Source: Hexactinellida sp. DTS-2022
Lineage: Eukaryota > Porifera > Hexactinellida
DNA: 64,000 nucleotides
Assembly (NCBI GenBank): GCA_028753945.1
Contig: JAPNXP010000003.1
Location: 5,890,001-5,954,000 of the forward strand
Direction: 5' to 3'
Below the pieces are notes generated by a model. That model was not told where the DNA came from. It saw nothing but the letters and a program-made list of their open reading frames with translations, and searched no databases. Shown one piece after another: positions 13,667 through 55,200 of this stretch; position 1 is the stretch's first letter, and every line of letters starts with the position of its first letter. The translations under genes were made by a program, and so were the position numbers.

Positions 13667-15685
13667 CTAAATAGTCCCATATACCAATGCGTTATGAGAG
13701 GCAGTACAGAAATACACATTACTCAGATTATCGCAAGCCATACAAATAGGCTCTTCAATGTCAGTAGCGGGATAAGTGCTACTTTCTTTGTAGTGGTTGT
13801 TGTACACAGCAAACATTGACTTGTAATAGAGATACACATTATCCGAACTGTCAACGTAAATCAACGCTTTTTCTCTCAATAGTGGTGTGTCGTAACGATT
13901 GTAGATTTTCCGCATTTTCGATTTTGGTTTGTAGATTTCGTCAACTACATCACGTAGTACTTGGTATTCGGAAACTGGGATTTCTGTACCTTGGAAGTCA
14001 CAAATCATAAACCATGGGTCATAGTGCAAAAGTAGAAAAATGTGACCCAACGAGTTGACAGCCATGTTGACGATAGGATTAGATCTGCTACTCACATTTG
14101 GATTCAAATCAATGTCGTTTTGTTCCACACAGAATGAATAGTCGATTCGTCTCGATTTAATGTCTGTGTTGAAAATAATAACAGAGGAGTTATAGCCTGA
14201 GGCTACTATAAGTTGTTCCTTGCTCGAGAAAGTAATATTTATAGGTTCGATCGTGTTTAAACTTCCGCCACTGCCTCTCACCACCGTAATGAAAGCAAAA
14301 TCTATATTAAAAACGTATATACTTGACTCCGATATATCTGCTATAGCGATTTTCCCAAGTTTCGACAAAGCCATGGTGCATTGGCCTGAAAACGTTACAC
14401 AATCTGTATGAGCATCCTTGTATGTTTGTTTCCTCAAAAGTTTATTGCCCAGATTATAAGAGAATAAGGAATCCAGACAGTACTTTGAAGTTGTGCCTAT
14501 TGGTGTCTTTAGTATGAAGGCTTGGCCCTTTTCATTAACGCCAATGCATCTCGGTTTCAATTGATCATCAGTTGACGGATCAAACAATTGTCTGGGCGGA
14601 CGCTGAAATGAAAGGGAGGATTGACCGATAAGATTAATGCAACCGTACTCCTCTGGGTTTAACGTTATTTCTCCTAACTTTCCGAATGCAAATTGAATCT
14701 TTTTCGGTTCAGTCGCTTCATCAGGGTGTAGTTCTCTCTCAAGTTGCTTTATTCTATCTCGAATAGGTACGGATACTTCTAGCAAATATGTAACCGGATA
14801 CTCGTAGAGATAGGGCCTAGTTATGACCTTGAAATCGTTAAGTTTATCAATTAGGCTTTCTTGTCTAACCATTAGTTCCTTCATGAAATCTCTATGTTGT
14901 TTCGATAGGTTTTTAACCTGCTCCAATAGGTTATCACGATGCTTTTCTAGGGCTTCTATCTTAGAATCAAACTCCTCTTTAATTCTTGTCAGCAACGTAC
15001 TCTCTTCTTCTGTCATTTCAACTAATTTCTGTTGGTAATATTTTTGAATTTCCATTTCGTTTTCTTTCCCACGAGTCATTTTACCGATATCTTTGATAAG
15101 TTCATCTTTCACATCGCCCGCAAAATAATCCAAATCCCGTATGTTATGGCCTTTATGCTCTTCTTTCAGACATTTTTTGCAGATATATTGTCCGTCCGCT
15201 TTACACAAATAAATACATTCTGAATTATGGAGTTTACACATGAAAATAGGTGGAGTAGGCTTTATAACTAAATCCTCCAAATGTTCTCCATCTTGTAATC
15301 TGACTTGACTATGCTTTTTGCCACGTAACATTGCTCTGTTATGCGATTCATAATCACTCCTGCACATTAATTCCTTACAATCGAGACAGAAAAATACCGC
15401 GTTCTTCGGTGGATCATCTAAACAGTCTTTACATTTCAATTCCGAGTCTGAATTTTGTGCTAAATTGAGAATAAGATTGTACGATTCAACCATATTTGCG
15501 CAAATCGGATTTTCAGGAATTCCAGCTTTGTCATTCGGTACGCGCTCCGGGCATATTTTATTCGGACAGTTGCTATGGTTACTCACACAGGAGCGACAGA
15601 ATGTGTGTAGACAGGGGAGAATTATCGGATCTTGCAAAACATCTTTACAAACTCTGCAGTAATAATCTTGTAGTTGCTGTGCCAT
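13667..15685 (-). CDS. TRIM-like RING/B-box/coiled-coil protein with C-terminal propeller-like region
   Basis: Intronless 672-residue frame starting MAQQLQDYYCRVC. RING at about 9-50 (CRVC...CLHTFCRSC...CPNKIC); first B-box at about 83-128 (CKDC...CLDC...C...H-H); second at about 144-183 (CKLH...C...C...CKKC...H-H); long charged coiled coil at about 190-315; the rest forms strand-rich repeats such as NSLGHIFLLL, SDNVYLYY and LSNVYFC, typical of a diverged NHL/beta-propeller. Probable role: RING E3 ligase whose propeller recruits a target (family knowledge; target not inferable). The RING has its Cys/His ligands, so activity is plausible. It begins almost with the RING, unlike the gene at 8218, which has a 60-residue leader. 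Confidence 0.88.
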   Translation of the reverse strand: MAQQLQDYYCRVCKDVLQDPIILPCLHTFCRSCVSNHSNCPNKICPERVPNDKAGIPENPICANMVESYNLILNLAQNSDSELKCKDCLDDPPKNAVFFCLDCKELMCRSDYESHNRAMLRGKKHSQVRLQDGEHLEDLVIKPTPPIFMCKLHNSECIYLCKADGQYICKKCLKEEHKGHNIRDLDYFAGDVKDELIKDIGKMTRGKENEMEIQKYYQQKLVEMTEEESTLLTRIKEEFDSKIEALEKHRDNLLEQVKNLSKQHRDFMKELMVRQESLIDKLNDFKVITRPYLYEYPVTYLLEVSVPIRDRIKQLERELHPDEATEPKKIQFAFGKLGEITLNPEEYGCINLIGQSSLSFQRPPRQLFDPSTDDQLKPRCIGVNEKGQAFILKTPIGTTSKYCLDSLFSYNLGNKLLRKQTYKDAHTDCVTFSGQCTMALSKLGKIAIADISESSIYVFNIDFAFITVVRGSGGSLNTIEPINITFSSKEQLIVASGYNSSVIIFNTDIKSRRIDYSFCVEQNDIDLNPNVSSRSNPIVNMAVNSLGHIFLLLHYDPWFMICDFQGTEIPVSEYQVLRDVVDEIYKPKSKMRKIYNRYDTPLLREKALIYVDSSDNVYLYYKSMFAVYNNHYKESSTYPATDIEEPICMACDNLSNVYFCTASHNALVYGTI

Positions 15686-16266
15686 AGTTTGTAACTGTGT
15701 TTAAGTTTACTGATTTATACATAGTTATTGAACAGAACCAAAGTGGTTTGTGGTATAACAAGCATGTTTCTATTAGATTCTAATTGTAGTTATTTATTTA
15801 ATAGTAGACACAGTAGGTTAAAGGACAACTTGATAGACTATACACAAGCATTAATTAGACCATGATATAACTGAATTATTGTTTTGATATATATTTACAA
15901 TGGTGTTTGTATAAAAATACAGGTGACCTTTGTTCCTCATATTTGATTTTCATCTTTGTTTACTGTTAAATAAATCCGACTCCAATTTGTAATTTGATTT
16001 CATTCAAAACAAGTTTTAGAAGATAATTAGATAATCAGATTAAATTGCACCATAACATTAGTTTTGTTCATAACAAGATAGCAAAATTATTCTTTTAGGG
16101 ATAATATATTAGTCAACCGCTTTCAATATAATCCCGGCTTTGCAAGGTTATTTTCTCATTTTACAATATGACTTTGCCAGTGCCTTAAATTCATTAGAAA
16201 AGGTGTTTTTGGCCGCTAATATTTGATTAATTAAACGACAGTATTAGAATTGAATAGGATCTATCA
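15686..16266. other. Divergent intergenic region
   Basis: Separates the - strand TRIM-like gene from the + strand TTC33-like gene, so both 5' regions must lie here. AT-rich, with no obvious repeat or RNA gene. Confidence 0.5.
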
Positions 16267-17015: not shown

Positions 17016-17194
17016 TTATCTAGGTGCCAGCCAGGCATCGGTTGAGGTGCAAACGTGCTTGCAATGTGATTCCATTTAGGTGCCGGGTTGGCACTTAATT
17101 TGGTGCCAGGTCTTTGGCAAGATTTCTGCACCTAAATGGAATCACACTGCAAGCACTTTTGCACCTCAACCGATGCCTGGCTGACACCTAAATA
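17016..17194. repeat. Long palindromic element (about 66-bp arms)
   Basis: Arms 17016-17084 and 17128-17194 are near-perfect inverse copies. Arm motifs include GGCATCGGTTGAGGTGC and its complement, and CATTTAGGTGCC with its complement. The loop is about 43 bp and holds further GGTGCC copies. No protein; a foldback MITE or hairpin-forming locus. A family D MITE remnant follows directly (17205-17310). Confidence 0.75.
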
Positions 17195-17509
17195 ACATTC
17201 TATTGGAAACGGTTGGCATATACCCCTATTGCCCTATATATTTACGCCGGTTATAAGTACAGTATATGCAGTTCCCGATTGTGTTCTTATAACCGGCATC
17301 CACTAATATTTTCTTGTTAATTAGTAACTGCATTATTGGTTAAATTAATACATAATTAACTTCGGTTGATCTAGGGTCCGGATTCGTATTTATTTGTTTG
17401 AGATGTGGAAGTAGTATCCAATTATTTATAAATTAATTTCTTAAAAACCCATATAGTAAATTCTTAAGTAAATCGGAGTATAAATTGTTCTCGTTTGATT
17501 GTAATATTT

Positions 17510-17612
17510 AGGAGGCTAAGCATTACGTTACTTCGTTCAAAAATTATCTTCAAAATTACAAAATTCGTGAAAAAATTTATAACAAATCAACGGAATGTGC
17601 GATCCTCCTTTT
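17510..17612 (+). ncRNA. Small structured RNA gene, array copy 1 (probable Pol III)
   Basis: The upstream block ACCCATATAGTAAATTC lies at about -64 to -45, the usual place of a PSE. TATAAATT begins at 17479, 31 nt before the predicted first base. The RNA opens AGGAGGCTAAGCATTACGTT and closes AACGGAATGTGCGATCCTCC followed by T5. The ends pair AGGAGG with CCTCCT, then CATT with AATG and CGTT with AACG around one A-G mismatch. Predicted length is about 103 nt. The class is not certain; size and terminal stem recall Y and vault RNAs. Confidence 0.72.
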
Positions 17613-17704
17613 TGAAAAATTGGTAAATTAATTTCTTAGAAACCCATATAGTAAGTTCTTGAGTAAATCGGAGTATAAATTGTTCTGGTTTGATTATATT
17701 AATT

Positions 17705-17799
17705 AGGAGGCTAAGCATTACGTTACTTCGTTCAAAAATTGCCTACAAAATGAGTGAAAACACTTACAACAATTCAACGGAATGTGCCATCCTCCTTTT
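17705..17799 (+). ncRNA. Small structured RNA gene, array copy 2
   Basis: Same layout: PSE-like block from 17641, TATAAATT at 17674 (again 31 nt upstream), AGGAGG start, CCTCCT plus T5 end. The middle is shorter than in copy 1, giving about 95 nt, while the promoter and both stem arms are nearly unchanged. Confidence 0.72.
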
Positions 17800-17891
17800 T
17801 GAAAAATTGGTAAATTAATTTTTTATAAACCCATATAGTAAATTCTTGAGTAAATCGGAGTATAAATTGTTCTGGTTTGATTGTAATAATT

Positions 17892-17997
17892 AGGAGGCTA
17901 AGCATTACGTTACTTCGTTCAAAAATTGCCTTCAAAATTTCTACAAAATAAGTGAAAACATTTACAACAATTCAACTGAATCTGCCATCCTCCTTTT
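17892..17997 (+). ncRNA. Small structured RNA gene, array copy 3
   Basis: TATAAATT at 17861, start at 17892 (31 nt), T5 terminator. The 3' stem arm reads AACTGAATCTGCC instead of AACGGAATGTGCG, which weakens the inner helix; the outer AGGAGG/CCTCCT helix is intact. Almost identical to copy 4, so the pair duplicated recently. May be a decaying copy. Confidence 0.65.
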
Positions 17998-18089
17998 TGA
18001 AAAATTGGTAAATTAATTTCTTATAAACCCATATAGTAAATTCTTGAGTAAATCGGAGTATAAATTGTTCTGGTTTGATTGTAATAATT

Positions 18090-18195
18090 AGGAGGCTAAG
18101 CATTACGTTACTTCGTTCAAAAATTGCCTTCAAAATTTCTACAAAATAAGTGAAAACATTTACAACAATTCAACTGAATCTGCCATCCTCCTTTT
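18090..18195 (+). ncRNA. Small structured RNA gene, array copy 4
   Basis: TATAAATT at 18059, start at 18090 (31 nt), T5 end. Nearly base-for-base the same as copy 3, 198 bp upstream, and it shares the weakened 3' arm. Confidence 0.65.
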
Positions 18196-18287
18196 TGAAA
18201 AATTGGTAAATTAATTTCTTATAAACCCATATAGTAAAATCTTAAGTAAATTGGAGTATAAATTGTTCTGGTTTGATTGTATTAATT

Positions 18288-18390
18288 AGGAGGCTAAGCA
18301 TTTCGTTACTTCGTTCAAAATTTACCTTCAAAATTTCTCTAATTTGTGAAAACATTTCAACAATACAACGGAATGTGCCATCCTCCTTTT
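18288..18390 (+). ncRNA. Small structured RNA gene, array copy 5
   Basis: TATAAATT at 18257, start at 18288 (31 nt), T5 end. The 5' arm has CATTTCGTT where most copies have CATTACGTT. Opposite AACGGAATG this replaces the A-G mismatch by a U-G wobble, which supports a real helix. The loop differs from copies 1-4. Confidence 0.72.
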
Positions 18391-18482
18391 TGAAAAATTG
18401 GTAAATTAATTTTTTATAAACCCATATAGTAAATTCTTAAGTAAATCGGAGTATAAATTGTTCTGGTTTGATTGTAATAATT

Positions 18483-18578
18483 AGGAGGCTAAGCATTACG
18501 TTACTTCGTTCAAAAATTATCTTCAATCTTGGTGAAACAAATTTCCAACTAATAAACGGAATGTGCAATCCTCCTTTT
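18483..18578 (+). ncRNA. Small structured RNA gene, array copy 6
   Basis: TATAAATT at 18452, start at 18483 (31 nt), T5 end, about 96 nt. Standard stem arms (CATTACGTT / AACGGAATG); short diverged loop. Last unit of the contiguous head-to-tail array, whose spacing is about 190-200 bp. Confidence 0.72.
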
Positions 18579-18717
18579 TGAAAATTGTTTAATTAATTTA
18601 GTGCTGGACGAATATACGTACCGAATATTCCAATATTCGTTTGAAATGATTGAACGAATATTCGTTTGAGGAAATATAAGATTCAAACAAATATTCCTTT
18701 ATTTATTTTGGATAACA

Positions 18718-18994
18718 CAGAGGCGTCGGAAGCAAAATGAAAGTGAGGCGGCCATAATTTTATTTTAACATAGTTAGTGAGCGACCAAAACGGGCCTGGC
18801 AATGGGTGACCGCTCGACCGCTCCACTATTCGTCATAAGTATATTATTTGTTAATAGGAAGTGGTTCGACGAAGAGTAGAAATTGATCTAAGGTGGCCGA
18901 GGACATCCTCAGCCAATATGCTGCATTTTTTTAATTTCAACAAAAAAGTGGGGCGGCCATGGCCGCCCCAGCCGCTGCAGTTCCTACGCCTATG
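18718..18994. repeat. hAT-like MITE
   Basis: Ends CAGAGGCGTCGGAAGC and, inverted, CCTACGCCTATG, with GGCGGCC motifs near both ends. Resembles the element at 44694 in its CAGAGGCGT terminus. No clean 8-bp duplication is visible, so it is probably old. It separates array copies 6 and 7. Confidence 0.55.
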
Positions 18995-19384
18995 TAACAT
19001 CATTACTTTTGTTTAGATTGGAGATCCTAAATATAAATTCCTACCTAAATTAGTTGAATAATAGCTAACTTGTATATAATACACTTTGTCACTATGATTA
19101 AACTAGTGTAACATTAACACAAATAACTATTTTCCACTTTATTTTGACTTTTAAATTTGATTTAATGCTTAGTCATCAAAACGATCGAATATTTGAATAT
19201 TCGTTCGTTTAGAAAAATGTTCGTTCGTTACATTTCGAATAGTATTCAGCCCTAATTTATTTGTTGTAATGTGGAAATACCCAATAAAATAATTTTATGT
19301 GTAGAAATTAACTTCTTATAAACCCATACAGTAAATTCTCAAGTAAATTGGAGTATAAATTGTTCTCGTTTGATTGTAATAATT

Positions 19385-19481
19385 AGGAGGCTAAGCATTA
19401 CGTTACTTCGTTCAAAAATTATCTTCAAATGGTGTGAAAACAAGTTTACAACAAATCAACGGAATGTGCGATCCTCCTTTT
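19385..19481 (+). ncRNA. Small structured RNA gene, copy 7
   Basis: About 800 bp beyond the contiguous array. PSE-like block ACCCATACAGTAAATTCTC, TATAAATT at 19354, start at 19385 (31 nt), T5 end, about 97 nt. Both arms match copies 1 and 8; the loop is its own. Confidence 0.72.
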
Positions 19482-19789
19482 TGAAAAATTGTTAAATTAA
19501 ATAATTACATCTATAATAAATTAATAGTTTAAAATACAACCAACAAATGCAATTATTAAGTTGAGACCGCTTATTATGAAATCTCTATTATGTTTACAAT
19601 TTTGGTATTCATAATAAAAGAACCTGGCTGTATTTGTTTCTGTTCCAATAAGGAAGGCTGCGTGCTACGTTATTTGTATAATCCTTTTCACCAGGTTGAA
19701 AAAAATCAAAAATTGCAACTGTGCCGACAGTGTGTTCCTTTGGAGCCACTATCTTTGGAGGGTACCAAAAGATAGCTGATTAATTGATA

Positions 19790-19976
19790 CAGTCGAAACC
19801 GGTTTTTTCTAACCAATTCTTTGCATGGAAATAAAGTAAGAAAAATCCGATAGTTAGAATAAACCGATTCAATATAACACAAAATTGGAATTTCTTACAC
19901 GTTTAAAATAAATAGTTAGTTAGAAAAAACCGATTAGTTAGAAATAACCGGTGTTAGAATAAACCGGTTTCGACTG
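19790..19976. repeat. Pogo/Tigger-like MITE, family G
   Basis: Terminal inverted repeats CAGTCGAAACCGGTTTTTTC and TAAACCGGTTTCGACTG, flanked by TA on both sides (19788-19789, 19977-19978). GTTAGAA(A)AAACCG motifs repeat inside. A partial relative lies at about 63135-63230. Confidence 0.85.
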
Positions 19977-20402
19977 TAGTGCCTCCCAAGGAAAATGATG
20001 TCGGCCCAGCTACTTTTTTTAGATTTTTCGCTATGACATCAACGCCTCAAGGTGTTAAGACCCATTTGTCAAGTGATCACGAGCCAAAAGGAACGATTCT
20101 ACTTGAAAACGGTTGGCATATACCCCAATATATTTTATGTCGGTTAAAAGGACAAATATGCAGTTCCCGACGATGTTCTCATAATCGGCATCCACTGTAA
20201 TATTTTTCTTATCAATTAAACTACATTGGTTAAATTAATACATAAATAGCATAGGTTGATAGTAAACTTGATACCAATAAGGGTGCCCGGATTATTTATT
20301 TGTTGAGATGTAGACTATTTAGAAATTAATTTCTTAGAAACCCATATAGTAAGTTCTTAAGTAAATTGGAGTATAAATTGTTCTGGTTTGATTATATTAA
20401 TT

Positions 20403-20501
20403 AGGAGGCTAAGCATTACGTTACTTCGTTCAAAAATTATCCTTCAAACTATGTGAAAACAAATTTATAACTAAACCAACGGAATGTGCGATCCTCCTTT
20501 T
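20403..20501 (+). ncRNA. Small structured RNA gene, copy 8
   Basis: PSE-like block from 20341, TATAAATT at 20372, start at 20403 (31 nt), T5 end, about 99 nt. Standard AGGAGG...CCTCCT terminal helix and CATTACGTT/AACGGAATG inner helix. Confidence 0.72.
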
Positions 20502-20865
20502 TGAAAAATTGTTGAATAATAATTAAATCTATAATAAATTAAATAGTTTAGATACAACCAACAAAGGTAATTACTTATTGGAACTAAACTAAAATACTAG
20601 TGTATCCACTTTAATTCAGATTTAGGGTCTTAATATCGAATCAAAGAATAGTCGGGTCTGCTTATTGTGAAGAATTTTTCGCCTAATAAATATGGGAAAC
20701 TTTTTATTCTGAACAAGCCCTATGATTCCAATTTAACAACTTTCATATTATGGTTTGTTTGTACTAAGTTGAGATCGCATATTATGAAGTGCTCTATTAT
20801 CAACACAATTTTTAGTCCCTTGAATGTTCATAATAAAAGAACCTGATTGTAGTTTCTGTTCCAAT

Positions 20866-20955
20866 AAGGAAGGTTGCGTGTTACGTTATTTGTATGATAT
20901 TCCTTCAGGCTGAAACATGTTTTTGTAACGAAGTAACGTGAACACTAAGCCTCCT
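20866..20955 (-). ncRNA. Diverged antisense relative of the small RNA gene
   Basis: On the - strand TATAAATT begins at 20986 and AGGAGGCTTAGTG at 20955, again 31 nt apart; GTTACTTCGTT follows as in the other copies. The inner arm is now GTGTT(C)ACGTT, and the far arm is AACGTAACAC. Both sides changed and pairing is kept. The 3' end is CCTTCCTTATT with no long T run, so it may be a pseudogene. A matching 3' half lies near 19630-19690. Confidence 0.55.
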
Positions 20956-21628
20956 TATTATACTAAGCGATAAGAAATAATTTATACTTGCACTTTAACT
21001 GTCTTTTGAAGGAATGGGTGTATTAGAATACAATATTTAGTTTACTATGTTGTATGTTGGTGTTCGAGCTCAATTCATGATCAAAATCAGTGTGCTGTTT
21101 ATAAATTTTCCTATGAAATAAATTGAAAGTTTGCACGAAACATTGTAGAGCGATTAGTAGAACTTGAAAAAATGGTATTAGTATAGTATTTTAACTTGAC
21201 GTTGTTAAATATTCATCATCCTGATTCTATTAATTTTTTTATCAATTATATTAATTAAACAGCCGTAAATAGTAAATACAAAACGAACAATTAGCTATAT
21301 ACAATCATATGATGTATTATTGTCCTTGTGACAAATATTTATTGTATAATAATGGACCGTTTAAACGTTAAGTACCGCTTCCAAGAGGGGAGGGTTAATT
21401 AACCAATGTGACCATCCTATTTGTATTACGGGATGATCGAAAAGCAGTGGTCTTATATTCGAGAATTTGTGTTACTTACTTAATTAACGTTTGAATTAAT
21501 TGCATTATTAATATTTATTTTGTAAGGTTTAACTTTAAACTAATTGCTCTAATAGAATACATACTGATTAGTTCAATAAACAGTTTCAAAGGGGAATAGT
21601 ACAACTTAGTTAATCAATAAAAATACAC
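20956..21628. other. Intergenic between RNA genes and the SorCS-like gene
   Basis: Includes the 3' flank of the SorCS-like gene. A fragment of the dispersed CTTCCAAGAGG repeat is at about 21365-21440; otherwise AT-rich with nothing recognised. Confidence 0.5.
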
Positions 21629-23289: not shown

Positions 23290-26200
23290 CAGTTAGTTAG
23301 TTAGTTTGTTTGTTAGTTTGTTAGTTAGTTTGTTCGTTTGTTCGTTTGTTGTTTGTTTGTTTGTTCTTATAATGTATTACCTGTGCCCCATAGAGATGAG
23401 AGAACACTGCATCCTTTATCAGATACACCACACCAATAGTTTGTTCATAAGAATACGCGTAGTCTGCTGTGGACACTTTAACTGTGTGAGCTCCAATTCT
23501 CGTAAATATGTGGACAGCAATATTTCCAGTCACAATCTGCCTGGAATCACTTTCCCCGAAGTCCCAAATAAATCGGTCATACATTTTAGAGGTAGTCTCT
23601 GTTACCTAGGCAACAGAACAGGAATGTAATAATCCGGTATTTTATGATAATACAATGTCTGTTATATTTTGCTGCAATTTATATAATAAATTTAATGGCT
23701 TACTTTATATCGGCCAAAACATTTTACATGTAAAACATTTTGTTTCGTAAAGGTGAAATTTTGATGAATTAATTACCTTGCCAGTGGCTGAAAATTGCAA
23801 TAGAAAAGGTGTTGCAATTGGCCTAAATATTATCTAGTTACCATTCTGTACCATAGGTATGTTATTAGAAATGAGAACTCACATTAAACACTATTTTCTG
23901 TCCAAGCACGGCCCACTGTCCCTCCAAATCAACCGATGAGAACACGATATCCATGGTTATATTGCAGCTAACTACAGTCGGCTCGTAAAGAAGGGAATCC
24001 CCTCCGAAACAGACATCTCCTGCTATCTTTCTAAATCCCTTCGTTAGGTTATAGCTAGCTACACCAGACACACACGATTGAGCGTATGGATTAGCCGCTT
24101 GGTTTAGGTCTATGACGCATGATTGGCTTGTTTGTTGCGGGTGTTTGTATCCCCAATCGCACTCGTAATCTACTATAGAACATTTGCAGAGAGTTATGTT
24201 CTTAGTTCGCTCGTAATCCAATCCGTTGTAGCATAGGGAGGTGGGCTTCTTCCGCTCCCAACTCACGGAGGAACCTAGTCAGATAATAGGTTAAGCCGTA
24301 TGATATATAACGTGTTATAGTATAAATGTTATGGAGTGTATGGTTATTGTATTTATAATTGTTAATAAAATGTGATGAAAAGTTTGTTTATACAAGTATT
24401 CATTTGAATTTTGGACTTACTTATATATTGACCCATGGCCTACTTAATATACGGCTATATATGTTCCCGAGAAGGCCAAGAAAGAAGAAGGCCAGTTTCT
24501 AATTTTCATTTTAGGATAAACTATGCCTCCTATTGTTGTTATTTGGGTTGTATATGGGGTAATCACCCATTGCGAGTCCAATGGAACCACTTTTGAGAAT
24601 CTCAGATTTGTGGTTAAGCTGTTTAGGCGCAATTTAATGATGACACCACAAATATACAAAAATATAAAATTTGAGTATAAAGAACTGCGAGAAAATGAAA
24701 ATAATTTGCTAATATACTTCGAATACATTTTCCGGATATATATTGATAATGAATATATATAAGTCAGCAATTATATACGTTTTATGTACGAAAAGAGTAA
24801 GTTTTAATTCGGATACTACTTGTATTTTAGCATGTGGTTGCTTAATAATTTTTAATTTTTTTTAAAATGTCGCCATTTTGTGATTTAGTAGTCTTTGGGG
24901 TATGAAATATATCCCTATATTAGTATTCCTATTATAAAATTATTAGAAAGTAGGAAGAAACTGAAATTTATGATATTTGAAAAAAATTCCTTTTACCATA
25001 AATTGTTACCGTCATCATTAAATTGCGCCTAAACAGCTTAACCACAAATCTCATATTCTCAAAAGTGGTTCCATTGGACTCGCAATGGTTTATTACTCCA
25101 TATACAACCCAAATAACAACAATAGGAGGCATAGTTTATCCTAAAATGAAAATTAGAAACTGGCCTTCTTCTTTCTTGGCCTTCTCGGGAACATATATAG
25201 CCGTATATTAAGTAGGCCATGATTGACCACACCTTTTCTAATGTAATTTTCGGGCACTAGTAAAGTCATTTATAAATATAACAAAATAAACATCAAAATT
25301 AATCCTTTTTACCTTGGCGTTGGCCAAGCCGAGTTTCTATATTGATGGCCGATATATAAGTTAGCACAAATGAACACTTGTAAATATATACATAAACAAA
25401 CTTTCCCTCACATAGCTAACTAACCCAGTAGACAGTCTCTGCCTACTCTATCGTTGTAAGGCGACCAATAGAAATAGTCCTGTCCCTCTAAGCAGGGGTT
25501 GGCTAGAATCTTAGAATAGTTAACCGTAACTATCTGCCAGTCGGGGCTCTCAGCTGTATTATCGTAAGCGAACAGCAAATCTACCAGCGTAGCCTCTCCG
25601 GGCTCTGTTACCAGCCCGCCGATAGTAACCTATAGGGTAGCGAGCTGTTATGCATTGTAACCTATAGTGACCTACAGGGTTATATGCAGTTATGCATTGT
25701 AACCTATAGTGACCTACAGGGTTATATGCAGTTATGCATTGTAACCTATAGTGACCTACAGGGTTATATGCAGTTATGCATTGTAACCTATAGTGACCTA
25801 CAGGGTTATATGCAGTTATGCATTGTAACCTATAGTAACCTATAGGGTTATATGCAGTTATACATTGTAACCGATAGTAACCTACAGGGATATACGCAGT
25901 TATGCATTGTAACCGATAGTGACCTACAGGGTTAGCGAGCTGTTATGCAATCAAATATAGTAAACATTTGATTTAACGACATCAATGGACCGTAGCAGTA
26001 TTGAAGCTACATCGGATTTAGTGACATATCGGATATACTTTTTAACCTGCCCAAACGAGTGTCATTAAACTCGTTATTAAGAACACGGATAAGGCATACA
26101 AGGTTTAATTCCTCTAGTTTAAACAAATGCATATAAATGACTGGTTAATACGAACAAATCTCGGCGACTGTATCCAGGTTGTATCTACAGTGGACTCTGG

Positions 26201-43200: not shown

Positions 43201-46200
43201 ATGCAAGATAGCCAGTATGGTGTAGAGTTAACTTTCGAGGATTATCAAGTCCGTCAAAACGCGACTATTATGCTAGCTACAAAGCTTCCTGGGGGAATCG
43301 GCAACTTTATGTCTCTAAAATTCGCTGATTTAACTTCTATAGATAAATTCCTTCCGATCAGTTTTGCAACCACGGCCCCTAATTGGAGAAAAATTGATGC
43401 CGGACTTAATTTCGAAGCTACCTGTTATAACCCGGCTTGTGTCGCTAATAACAAAGACGTTTATGTACAAAAAGGATTTTATGAATCTTCCGCTGGCGTT
43501 TGTCGACTCAGTTTAGAAATAAATCAATTGTTTTGTCCAATGTGTGATGAAAAGTTGGATACGGATAATATCCATGGTTTGGGTATATACAGATGTGGAC
43601 TGCTTGTTCGAGCTAAGATTATAGGGAAACAGGAAATCCGATTTTCTGTAGAATCAAGAGATACTTTCAAGTTGGCACATTCTTTCAGTGATGATAAACT
43701 CAATTACGAGTATATTGTACTTGTAGTTACACCCATTTAGATAGAAAATACTTTGCACTGATTAGAATTTGTGTGTTGTACTGTATTATGTTGTTGCATG
43801 TTCTGCAACTGATATGATTAATTAGTTTGTATATTAAATTATTAGTTGTTAGAAATGTAATACAAAAGGGTTGCACAATTGCAAATTGTATTTATACAAA
43901 TACATTATTATAAGAAATCAACTATGAAAGAAATTAATACAATTGGACCTAATTAATTACGTTAATAGTATGCAACGTTAATTTCCTATAATAATGACCG
44001 AATTATCTAATAGACTGAATTAAACACTTGCTCTTAAAGCAGACTGGTTAATTGGGTTCTCTGCTTAATTGGGTCATCATTTCACAACAGGATTTACGGA
44101 ACGCAATTACAGTTTGGCTTGTAATATTTTTGGTTAATTAGGTCAAACTACCTCCGTACCAAAGTGACTCAATTACTGTATTGCTATTAGGGGAGTAACA
44201 CACAATACTTCATCTGTTTGATGATAATATGAATATATATCAAATTGTGTTTGTTTCTATAAATAATATCTGGATATTAATGTGAACTCATCTAGGCTAG
44301 TATTCTCAGAATTTATACTGATTTGGTGTGAGCATGTTAATCGATCATATTGCTATATAAGCACTATTTATTCACATTTCTTTATTTGTTCAAATTGTTT
44401 GTATTGTAAGAAGGTTCATCCTATTTGTTGTTTCGTATGGCTACTGGCATGGTAACAATGTTTATAGTCGGTTTAGGCGCGACTAAATCTCTTCATTTTC
44501 CAGTTGCGACTTTCAATCAAACGAAAATATCAGAACTCAAAGATAAAATAAAAGAAAGAACGGGGGTTCCTAGTGACGTTCAGATGTTGACATATGCTGG
44601 CAAAAAACTGGAATCTGATAGGACGTTTTTGGATTATTATTTGTGTAATAATGTAGATATCTTCGTAGATATAAAGTTGCCAGGGGGTGGTAACAGAGGC
44701 GTAGCTAGGCCTGCATGAAGGTGCGGCACTGGTAGATTATGGTTGCGGCATTTCCGCACTATAGTATTATACTAATGGGCATTTTTGTGGGCACAAATTT
44801 TTAGGGTGCGGCCTGTGCCCCAAGTGCCGCACCCTGGCTACGCCTCTGGGTGGTAACACTTTTGGCTCGCTTCGTCATATTTTCACTTTTAAACCGATGG
44901 ATTTCGCTACTACTGCTCCTCAATGGAGAAATATACAGGAAGGTTTGAGCTTTCAAGGTACTTGTAAGAATATGACTTGTGTAGCAAATAACGATTCTGT
45001 TTTGATACCCAAAGGCTTTTACGACGATTCTAACGGCTATTGTTTTCTTAACTACGAGATTAATCAATTGGAATGTCCGATGTGTCATACCAAACTGGAT
45101 AAAAGGAATATCAGTGGTGTAGACATATACAGGTGTAAGCTAGAAGTCAAATCTACAATAATAGGTCAAGATGAAACTCGCTACAATATTGAGTCAACTG
45201 ATAAATACAAACATGCCCAATCTCTTTTTGAGAATGATGAGTCTATCATTATGATAGTTAGGCGTCTCTAATAACACACAAGTAGTATAGTAGTGTGTGT
45301 AGCCTAGGTCCCTATCTCATTATAGTACTTACATGTATTATAATCTAACTGTGTATTCAATTTGCTTCCCCCATTAGTTTGTGTGTGATTTTTTGTGATA
45401 TCTCATTATAGCTATCTTATTAATCTTATGCAGTCAGGCATGGACACGAATAGTTTATTAAATATACACAAATATGGTAGTTACCCTACATGCATCAAAA
45501 AGTGGAATTACGTATATGGGCATAGCTGATACGTCTAAACAGCTAAACAGTGTCTCAATTAAAAGCTGTTATAAACTTATAATTACCAATGTAATACAAA
45601 TAATTTGCATAATTGCGAATTGTATTTGCACAAATTCTTATTATAGGAAATCAACTTTGGAAAAATTAATGCAATTTATTAACATGCAACGTCAATTTCT
45701 TATAAATAGGCTATATATAATAAATTACTTGTTTATCATCCCGCCCGTCCCAATTTTTATCCTCCTTCCGGACAATATATATTACGTATTATTTTATTAG
45801 GCACCCATAATGTTTAAATATACAATCGGATCATATTGCTATAGCACTATTTATTCGCAATTCTTTGCTTACATAAATTGTTTCATCCTGTTTGTTGTTC
45901 ATATGGCTACTGATATGGCAAGTGTGTATTTAACGGAGTTGGTCGGTAAGGTTACAACTTATGATTTTCCTGTTGCGACTTTCAGTCAAACGACAATATC
46001 AGAACTCCAATACCAAATAGAGCTAAAAACGAGAGTTAATATTGAGCATCAGTGGTTGTTTCAAAAGAAACATTTGGAATCTCGACTGGATGATGTTGAT
46101 CTTACATTTGGGGATTATGATATATGTCCTGGTTCGAATATTAGGCTAGCTTTAAGGTTTTCAGGGGGAGGAGGTGGTAACTTTATTCCTTTAAGTTTCG

Positions 46201-52200: not shown

Positions 52201-55200
52201 TAAGGATCAAATTGATGAATTACATGCAACACAAGTTTAATTATAAGGAATAAGCTGATACGTCATTCTAACAGTGTCTCAATTATTAAAAGCTGTTATA
52301 AACGTATAGTTTTCATTATAAATTATTCCTTAGTTGGTCAGCAATATTTGGTCAACATTAGATCTCTGTAACAAGTTAAATTCTACTTCAACGTTTTACT
52401 ATGCGTACTAAAAAATTCAAAAAGGAGGATCGCACATTCCGTTATTTAAATAAAGTTGATTACACAATGCAATATCATGAGGTTTAATTTTATTAGTTTT
52501 TGAACGAAGTAACGGAATGCTTAGCCTCCTAATTAATATAATCAATCCAGAACAATTTATAATCCAATTTACTTTAGAATTTACTATATGGGTTTATAAT
52601 AAATTAATATCTTACAACATAATTAAATATTTGGTTACTAAACTTCCACATCTATACTATTAAACACAAGGCTGTATATATATGTGTGTATATATTTGAT
52701 GTATGTTCGAATTGATTGAAGAAACTGCACGGTTTCCAAATCTGATTTTTGGCATATAGGTGTAAATTTTGGCCCCCGACAACAAGTTGAGGTTTGTGCT
52801 AAAATATTTTCACACCTAGCCAAGTTATGACGTCATTATCACATTTCGAGAATTATGAGAATTCACTTAATCGCACATAATTCGCGCACTCTAATAGATA
52901 AAATCTGAAAATTAATAGAACATGTACATTAATGATGCGGACACTTGGTCACACCAGATTGCCAATATGCTTGCTCATTATTGCATGATACCTGTGCATT
53001 TAACTTAACTTTTTAAACTAGCTTCAACTGATTTCTGACGTGCTTTAGGCCTTTTATTAGGCAGAACACATAACTGTCTACTTTTATTACCATGCACTAA
53101 TAATAATAATAATAATTACAGTAGATGTCGGATATAAGCACACCAGTTATAAGAACATATCGGATATAAGAACACTATGTTGGAAAACGGTTGCCATCTA
53201 CCCTATATAATTTATTTCGGTTATAAGAACATGCCGGTTATAAGCACATCAAGTGCAGTTCCCTACGATGTGCTTATAACCGACATCCACTGTGTCTGTA
53301 ATAGTCCATATTCTCTAATAGGGCCAATTGCCCACTGGTGGACTATTAGAGAACAGTGTGTACTACTATTTAACACACTGCATATTGTGTAGGATAGCAC
53401 AGTTAAGGAGAATGAGATCGAGCTGGATGAAGATAGCAAATCGACGCTTTATGATTTCGGTTTTAAAGGAAAGAGAGAGACCGTTTGTATTCGGGATAAG
53501 AATGATAGGCAACCTCAGGCTGTCACATCCGATGTTAGTACTATAAGTATAGTATAGCAGTCAGGGGTTTATCCAGGAGCGCGCCATACGCCTAGAGGCG
53601 TATAAATTGGGATATGTTTTCGTTTGGGAGCGCGAAAACTGCCGAAAATCCCCATAGATTAATACAAAACTAACCTTTAAGAGTACAAAATTCATACTCT
53701 AGTGACCTTAGGACAGTTAGGAGTGTTCAATTCTACTCCTGTATAATACCCTGATAGCAGTTATGACGCTCCATTAATTTCCCTTAGACATACGTACTAC
53801 AGTAGAACCTTTAGAAAGTGAATACCCTGGGGACCAGCCAAAACGTTCACTTTTGAGAGGTGTTCACTTTTCATGATATTTTATAGCGTATGTCTAAAGC
53901 AATGGGGAATATTTGGGACCGAGAAAAAGTGTCATATTTTGGAGTTGTTCACTTTTGGAGGTTTTACTGTATAAGTATAGTATACTTTAAAGCAATTATT
54001 AACTTAAAATAACTTGCTAGTAGAGCAATATAATTGCTACAGTAAACTCTCGTTATACCTAAGTGCTTGGGACCTGTTAATTCCTTCGTTATATCCAAAT
54101 ATTCGTTATAAGCGCATAATAACTTACTTCCTTTAAAACCAAATCAGATATAACGAAATGGATATTTCCCACAGAGCACTAAATGCATGAATTATTATCC
54201 GCTTATAACGAATATCCGGATATAACGAAGGAATTCACAGGTCCCAAGCACTTCGTTATAACAGAGTTCCCTGTACGTTATATTCCTATTGCTAGGATGA
54301 AGATCAGAAGAACGTTAAGCTGACTAACGTGACCTGGCATTCTGGCTATAGCACGCCTAGCGTCGGTTATAACGGACAGCGACCCATTAACTACACAACC
54401 ACCTCAAGTTGGTATCCGTCATACCACATGCAGCAATCTGAAACAGGTAGATAGATAATGGGAATATATACTATAGGAATATTATACCATAGAAGGATAT
54501 GTATGTATTCACTCAGTATTTGGTTGTTATTTGGGAAATTATTTGTTTGTTTATTACTTCTTTGTTTTATTAATTTGTTGTTAATTTGTTTGTTGTTTGT
54601 TTGTTTGTTGCATGTTTTTAATTTGTTGTTAATTGTTTGTTTGTTCTTTCGTTGATTTATTGATTTGCTATTTGTTTGTTTGGTGTTTGTTTGTTTGTTT
54701 GTTTGTTTGTTTGTCGTTTGTTTGTTGCTTGTTTGTTTATTTGTTTATTTATTACTTCGTTGTTTTGTTAACTTGTTATTATTTGGCTTGTACTATATTA
54801 TTATCGTTGTATAGGATTTGTTGGATTGGTGAATCAAGCGATGACGTGCTATCTCAACAGTCTGCTACAATCTCTGTACATGTCTCCGGAGTTTAGAAAT
54901 GCTATTTACAGGTAGATTGTAAATAACGAAAATAACTAATAACCGCTTAGAACGAACTACATTAAACTATGGTTACAATTAAAACTTTGTTCACTTCGTT
55001 ATAAGCAGAGAAAACCAATTACTTAATGAGCATCCTTATATGTAGACGGTCTAGAAAAAGCCCATACAAATAAGCCAAAAATTTTGTAGACCGTCTTTAA
55101 ATTCTGTAGACCAAAAGCCCTGCCGTCTATGGATAATATTAATGTATACGTAAGAAAACCTGGTCTAGAAATAGACGTTCTACATATAAGTTATTTCTTA

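Follow-up and report, generated by a model that had tools for sequence, protein, structure and literature searches.

The locus considered here raises the question of what is encoded by a run of short, closely similar units in the genome of the glass sponge Hexactinellida sp. DTS-2022. The stretch analysed, hereafter the window, is 64,000 nt long and corresponds to C12:5890001-5954000 (contig JAPNXP010000003.1) in a genome searched over 112.4 Mb and 18 contigs; coordinates given without a contig are those of the window. It contains eight direct units between 17510 and 20502, a ninth full copy and a diverged copy, the latter two on the minus strand. Judged from genome sequence, the units are almost certainly a family of structured type-3 RNA polymerase III (Pol III) genes, and their predicted product is probably the glass sponge's vault RNA, driven by a U6-type promoter.

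Array layout and promoter class

The direct units lie on the plus strand at 17510..17613 (unit 1, 104 nt), 17705..17800 (unit 2, 96 nt), 17892..17998 (unit 3, 107 nt), 18090..18196 (unit 4, 107 nt, with an RNA identical to that of unit 3), 18288..18391 (unit 5, 104 nt), 18483..18579 (unit 6, 97 nt), 19385..19482 (unit 7, 98 nt) and 20403..20502 (unit 8, 100 nt). The predicted RNAs of the array are thus 96-107 nt long and that of the ninth copy (52419..52530(-)), which has a different loop, is 112 nt, in line with the 95-110 nt proposed in an earlier note on the window. The diverged copy (20863..20955(-)) is convergent to unit 8. In all eight direct units the TATA element TATAAATT begins exactly 31 nt 5' of AGGAGG, CCCATA lies 62 nt 5' of AGGAGG in the proximal sequence element (PSE)-like block that had been placed at about -64 to -45, and the unit ends in CCTCCTTTTT, that is, CCTCCT followed by T5. 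The spacing described as constant is so from promoter to start, whereas from unit to unit it is uneven (195, 187, 198, 198, 195, 902 and 1018 nt). The T5 terminator is present in nine of the ten window copies, while the diverged copy has TTATT and no clean terminator.

The promoter of unit 1, consisting of the PSE block (CCCATA...) and TATAAATT at -31, spans 17448..17486(+), and the same promoter pattern is found at 17643..17681, 17830..17868, 18028..18066, 18226..18264, 18421..18459, 19323..19361 and 20341..20379 for units 2 to 8, respectively. The ninth copy has a GGATTATAAATT variant at 52554..52592(-), and the diverged copy carries TATAAATT 31 nt upstream of its start (20979..20986(-)). 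An Rfam search of the genome found two intact U6 genes, one on C15 and the other 38 kb away from the array on C12, together with three truncated matches. The upstream regions of the U6 genes read AACCCATA...GGAGTATAAATA or a close variant, and these promoters (CCCATA...TATAAAT) align without gaps to those of the array, with 25-28 of 38 nt identical in the nine array-type window units (26/38 between unit 1 and the C15 U6 promoter) and 14-17 of 38 in the diverged copy. The distance from CCCATA to the start is 61 nt in the U6 genes and 62 nt in the array. The U6 genes differ from the array in an extra upstream ATACTCCAnAACnTATTGA element, which the array units do not have, and in an RNA product unrelated to the array RNA.

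In other animals, a PSE together with a TATA element marks Pol III genes, while U2 is a Pol II gene. In this genome, the Pol II-type control, which comprised U2 only, gave two U2 genes, both of which carry PSE-like AACCATATCATA at -57 and neither of which has a TATA element. Since U6 shares the PSE and TATA and U2 is without TATA, the combination appears to mark Pol III genes here as well; the array units share the U6 block and spacing and are, therefore, most plausibly type-3 Pol III genes. The exact pattern of CCCATA, 20 to 34 nt and GGAGTATAAAT gave 11 matches genome-wide (nine array-type and two U6-type) and none for the reversed control, and a relaxed fixed-length pattern allowing three mismatches gave 19 against one for its control. 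The latter comprised ten array-type matches, four U6-type matches, two hairpin genes and three unexplained ones (C3:3544856, C6:567865 and C10:1370196) in which no recognisable RNA was found. No type-3 RNA family larger than the array emerged from the promoter search. Promoter-pattern scans of viral and prokaryote contigs gave 0 and 0, as expected for a eukaryotic nuclear RNA.

In the two hairpin genes, at C3:4986210 and C12:5872619, a U6-type PSE and TATA precede a near-perfect hairpin, GTTACCTG...CAGGTAAC, which begins at about +1; their loops differ, no T-run is adjacent, and neither has an Rfam match at the gathering score. Truncated U6-like copies with PSE and TATA were found at C12:5864566, C12:5865443 and C3:3269944, the first of which leads into tandem copies of a U6 fragment (TTGGAACATTATAGAGAAGATTAG...). 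Type-3 Pol III genes are clustered locally: about 80 kb (C12:5864-5943 kb) hold the array, the ninth copy, the U6 gene, truncated U6 copies and one of the hairpin genes.

Genome-wide copy counts are lower bounds. A search with GGCTnnGCnnnnCGTTACTTCGTTC allowing up to three mismatches gave ten perfect matches, all on C12, and one three-mismatch match on C18 (control, two), and TATAAAT followed by GTTACTTCG at 40-60 nt recovered the 11 known copies and one unrelated site (control, eight). The copy outside the window, at C12:6156 kb(-), is partial: its promoter and first 34 nt are intact and then it stops. A long palindromic AT-rich element follows these 34 nt, as if the copy had been interrupted or truncated. 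When the window was searched with a covariance model of its ten copies, all ten were recovered on their own strands, the weakest being the diverged copy (E 1.1e-14). The next ten matches fell on the opposite strand of the same sites (E 7e-7 to 0.02), which is expected because the helix is near-palindromic, and were followed by 45602-45688 at E 0.041 and weaker matches.

Constraint along the unit and fold of the RNA

The earlier note described a conserved promoter and stem with a drifting loop, and the measured differences agree with it. Among the eight array copies, pairwise difference was 0 in the TATA element, both lower stem arms, CTAA (CUAA in the RNA), ACTTCGTTC / ACUUCGUUC and T5, 0.025 and 0.086 in the upper arms, and 0.136 in the 3' internal loop. 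The PSE differed by 0.056 and the promoter spacers by 0.07-0.08, while values rose to 0.282 in both the central loop and the 40 nt downstream and to 0.200 further upstream. Across four chosen copies (17510, 19385, 20403 and 52530), the loop differed by 0.375 and the downstream flank by 0.521, against 0-0.05 for stems, motif and terminator. This segment-wise pattern is that of an RNA gene under selection, and not of a satellite. A satellite or short interspersed element (SINE) reading was rejected on these grounds.

In the predicted fold, the ends pair over 6 bp, a 4-nt 5' internal loop (CUAA) follows, and a second helix of 9-10 bp is broken by a 3' bulge and an A/G mismatch before UUACUUCG and the freely drifting loop; the U-tail stands at the end. 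Two pairings are possible in the lower part of the second helix, GCAUU/AAUGU, as in the earlier note, or GCA/UGC, and RNAalifold prefers the three GCA/UGC pairs. Statistics were computed on the ten window copies, nine of them distinct. With the first pairing (16 pairs), 94.4% of cells are paired and three pairs are changed on both sides, a result reached by 3 of 500 shuffles and by no slid version; the number of pair types is reached by 343 of 500. With the second, 95.1% of cells are paired and two pairs are changed on both sides (52 of 500 shuffles), and one slid version scores higher on covariation. The third pair counted as a double change under the first pairing is the A/G position, which is unpaired in six of the nine distinct copies and U.G, C-G or A-U in the rest. 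As had been noted, the base opposite G is A in seven array copies, T in 18288 (giving U.G) and C in 52530(-) (giving C-G).

True double changes were found at two pairs, both in the diverged copy, where GTGTT/AACAC replaces CATT/AATG with pairing kept, just as first described. Here, C-G becomes U-A, A-U becomes G-C, the A/G mismatch becomes A-U and G.U becomes G-C; 16 of 16 pairs are kept despite ten arm substitutions (not counting an inserted C). When the same number of substitutions is placed at random, all 16 pairs survive in 5.5e-5 of draws under a uniform null and in 5.2e-4 under a transition-biased one, and in 5.6e-4 to 2.7e-3 when the 5' arm is held as observed. Several results weigh on the other side. 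An exchange in one arm only of the diverged copy would still leave 14-15 of 16 pairs, owing to wobble, and the RNAalifold covariation term is only -0.03. Stem changes without compensation, which the earlier note had said would speak against its reading, occur in two of the ten copies, 17892 and 18090, whose identical RNAs carry two pair-breaking upper-stem changes of the first fold, one of them falling in a bulge under the second pairing. No pair is changed on both sides within the eight array copies, so the compensatory change claimed for the family stands for the diverged copy, and the covariation evidence comes chiefly from this one paralog. The view of the array as a structured Pol III RNA rather than a satellite is nevertheless upheld by the U6 promoters, the TATA-less U2 genes, the segment-wise conservation and the pairing of the diverged copy.

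A probable vault RNA and its rivals

Vault shell and vault-associated proteins appear to be encoded in the genome. The shoulder domain of MVP was found at two loci, on C1 and C5, and a locus with TROVE and DUF5920 domains at C18:6430576-6432232 is inferred to be a TEP1-like gene. Ro60 is encoded at C13:5168 kb (PDB 1yvp, E 2.6e-18). With MVP, TEP1-like and Ro60 genes present, a vault RNA is to be expected in this species.

Five of the ten copies (18288, 52530(-), 19385, 17892 and the diverged copy) were scanned singly against the 4227 families of Rfam, in which the Vault family, RF00006, has a gathering score of 34 bits. In all three intact units among them, RF00006 was the best family, matched over model positions 1-99 and with the unit boundaries: 18287-18392 at 26.0 bits (E 0.0004), 52418-52531(-) at 24.8 bits (E 0.00094) and 19384-19483 at 21.9 bits (E 0.0054), the next-best families having E 2.2, 1.1 and 0.51. 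Because these three scans gave Vault as the top family, the vault reading moved from about even chances to a probable one.

The helix layout points the same way. For comparison, three human vault RNA (vtRNA) sequences and their folds, guided by selective 2'-hydroxyl acylation analysed by primer extension (SHAPE), were taken from PMC10087102. With the second pairing, the array RNA runs 6 bp, a CUAA/GAU internal loop, 3 bp, a 3' UG bulge, 2 bp, the A/G mismatch and 4 bp; vtRNA1-2, as drawn in PMC10087102, runs 7 bp, a CUUU/UU loop, 3 bp, a 3' U bulge, 2 bp, an A/G mismatch and 4 bp. In both, UUACUUCG closes the 5' arm, and GUUACUUCG follows the 5' arm of the array RNA at the position it has in vault RNA. 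The array RNA also has a 9-mer in common with a human vtRNA at a matching offset; of 4776 overlapping control windows, 17 do so as well, and 191 have a 9-mer in common at any offset. A model built from the human vtRNAs aligns seven of the ten units from first to last base, with low scores (best 11.2 bits, E 0.0046 for 151 bases). Further likenesses are the length class, the paired ends with a U-tail and the occurrence of the genes in a local cluster.

The array differs from mammalian vault genes in its external, U6-type promoter, and from human vault RNA in an AU-rich central loop. The segment beginning AAGC had been likened to the box A region; GTTACTTCG is not box A itself, which precedes the corresponding segment in human genes. 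When compared with the consensus sequences, the best box A match in every one of the ten units covers 6 of 9 positions (human, 8 of 9), with a partial core (6/9) at positions 4-15 of the eight array units, and the best box B match covers 5-6 of 10 positions compared with 8-9 in human genes, a shortfall that counts against the vault assignment. Box A is thus at most a partial core, and box B is not kept. A box-B reading of CGTTCAAAA was dropped, as this sequence stands too close to the start and the diverged copy no longer has it. ARAGORN found no tRNA-like sequence in the window.

A glass-sponge-specific structured type-3 Pol III RNA, homologous to neither vault nor Y RNA and with a short bulged terminal helix acquired by convergence, is the first rival to be weighed, here together with the points that speak against vault RNA. 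Every Vault match stays below the gathering score, the E-value of the best unit becomes about 0.09 when scaled linearly to the whole genome for one family, and, the units being paralogs, the three matches are one finding seen three times. The window gave no match at Rfam gathering scores. A permissive scan of the 3.8-kb array region up to E 10 with coarser filters gave five matches, none relevant and none to Vault or Y RNA, the Vault matches presumably being lost to the filters. Unit 17892, one of the two pair-broken copies, and the diverged copy gave no Vault match up to E 10 when scanned singly, and a genome-wide RF00006 search gave 0 among the 48 of 6088 candidates scored. The pairing that resembles vtRNA1-2 is one of two alternatives for the array RNA, and vtRNA1-1 and vtRNA1-3 are drawn otherwise in PMC10087102, as 4 bp, a 5' bulged A and 4 bp. 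Over the window, the best unit comes eighth among the 28 matches of the human-vtRNA model (E 1.9). Within the array stretch, the units score lower than a GC hairpin, and 18288 is matched out of register. Plain similarity to human vtRNA is not significant, local alignment of five of the ten units with the three human sequences giving a best p of 0.01 in 15 tests and 0.057-0.29 in the remaining 14. The low Vault scores, the rank under the human-vtRNA model and the weak plain similarity speak for the rival, and the expansion of the units close to a U6 gene suggests a borrowed promoter. Such an RNA is nevertheless considered unlikely, as Vault tops 4227 families end to end in all three intact units, the helix layout and GUUACUUCG are where vault RNA has them, and MVP and a TEP1-like protein are encoded in the genome. 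The vault likeness put forward in the earlier note finds support, though below the gathering score, in the best Rfam family of three units and in the helix layout.

Y genes have a purely external type-3 promoter, and the array shares this class. The RNA would then be of the Y or stem-bulge RNA (sbRNA) type, with a lower stem bound by Ro60 and an upper stem and loop for other roles, and Ro60 is indeed encoded. The two-part stem, drifting loop and U-tail resemble the descriptions of Y RNA and nematode sbRNA (RF00019) in PMC4450293 and PMC4726728, UUAC stands at the loop start, and the upper stem of the diverged copy has GUG/CAC. However, the 7-bp lower helix with a single bulged C and an opposite 3-nt bulge, as described in PMC4726728, is not present, GUG-CAC is absent from the array copies and found in one of the ten window copies, and the fifth loop letter is U instead of C (UUACU in all ten copies, 4/5 letters agreeing). 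No Y_RNA match appeared in the five single-unit Rfam scans or in the window at the gathering score. Genome-wide, RF00019 gave three matches (E 0.56-7) among the 50 of 18680 candidates scored, none at the array, and these are attributed to chance, since matches also occur in 8 of 14 control genomes. Alignments of five units to a Y3-type RNA did not exceed those of shuffled sequences. The Y-like stem suggested at first, thus, holds for promoter and general form and fits less well than vault RNA, and a Y-type identity is quite improbable.

A satellite, or a spread of U6-promoter pseudogenes without RNA function, would account for six copies standing in tandem, for the truncated U6-type copies about 40 kb away, and for the broken pairs of 17892 and 18090 and the cut copy at C12:6156 kb. 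It would not be expected to leave TATA, lower stem, motif and terminator with zero variation against 28% in loop and flank, or to keep pairing in the diverged copy, and the few copies found (lower bounds) are all on one chromosome, which makes this reading very improbable. A spliced-leader RNA array is brought to mind by a report of a trans-spliced leader in the glass sponge Aphrocallistes vastus (PMC10282587), and by the small size, multiple copies and conserved 5' segment of the genes. It is extremely improbable, as the ends pair mutually with T5 directly after the closing stem, the promoter is U6-type and TATA-bearing, and the copies have no conserved internal Sm-type site.

If the array RNA is a vault RNA, TATA and PSE would recruit Pol III, which would transcribe from AGGAGG to T5. 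The U-tail, possibly bound by La, and the terminal helix would protect the RNA, the TEP1-like TROVE protein might grip the bulged terminal helix and UUACUUCG, and the resulting ribonucleoprotein could be recruited to a vault shell built by two MVP paralogs, with the variable central loop as the free, copy-specific part. Vault RNAs have been placed in deuterostomes, two lophotrochozoan lineages and trypanosomatids (PMC2770079, PMC9326685). Among the matches listed in the open-access literature, no sponge vault or Y RNA was found, and the words vault and Y RNA are absent from the main texts of some glass-sponge genome papers. In Trypanosoma brucei, a vtRNA (TBsRNA-10) was proposed from a bulged terminal helix and short 5'/3' stretches, with co-immunoprecipitation with a TEP1 candidate (PMC9326685); by this review's description, it shares with the array RNA the bulged terminal helix and, as predicted for the sponge, its origin as a Pol III product and TEP1 binding. 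A vault-class RNA with a U6-type external promoter at the base of animals, joining those of deuterostomes, lophotrochozoans and trypanosomes, appears fairly likely. The vault RNA would then go back to the base of the animal tree, and the terminal helix with UUACUUCG would be the ancient TEP1-bound core, with promoter type and central loop free to change. A multicopy candidate with clear promoter and boundaries, in a genome with MVP, TEP1-like and Ro60 genes, makes the age and core of vault RNA testable.

Duplications and other features of the window

A search with the diverged copy, in which 40 of 162 candidates were scored, returned the copy itself, and a duplicate of its 3' part and flank at 19608..19682(-) (89% across 72 nt of the query). 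The other 38 were short matches to a flanking repeat. The regions 19500-19682 and 20518-20898 form a larger duplicated block of a direct unit and the convergent diverged copy, the first block having the 3' part of the latter only. Beside the array, an inverted repeat at 17016-17195, with arms of 68 nt that are 94% complementary and 44 nt apart, looks like a small palindromic element.

Elsewhere in the window, a TRIM-type protein is encoded at 13667-15700(-), which is 64% identical to a protein of the glass sponge Oopsacas minuta and up to 88% identical to other records; this one protein points to a glass sponge or a near relative as the host. A minisatellite accounts for the open frame at 25559-25942(-), which is built of the repeated unit YRLQCITAYNPVGH. 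Between 39189 and 51637, open frames of one family stand in tandem and share a conserved, cysteine-rich C-terminus (CPMCxxKLDKRN-like); the first member, the only one scanned, has a ubiquitin domain in Pfam.

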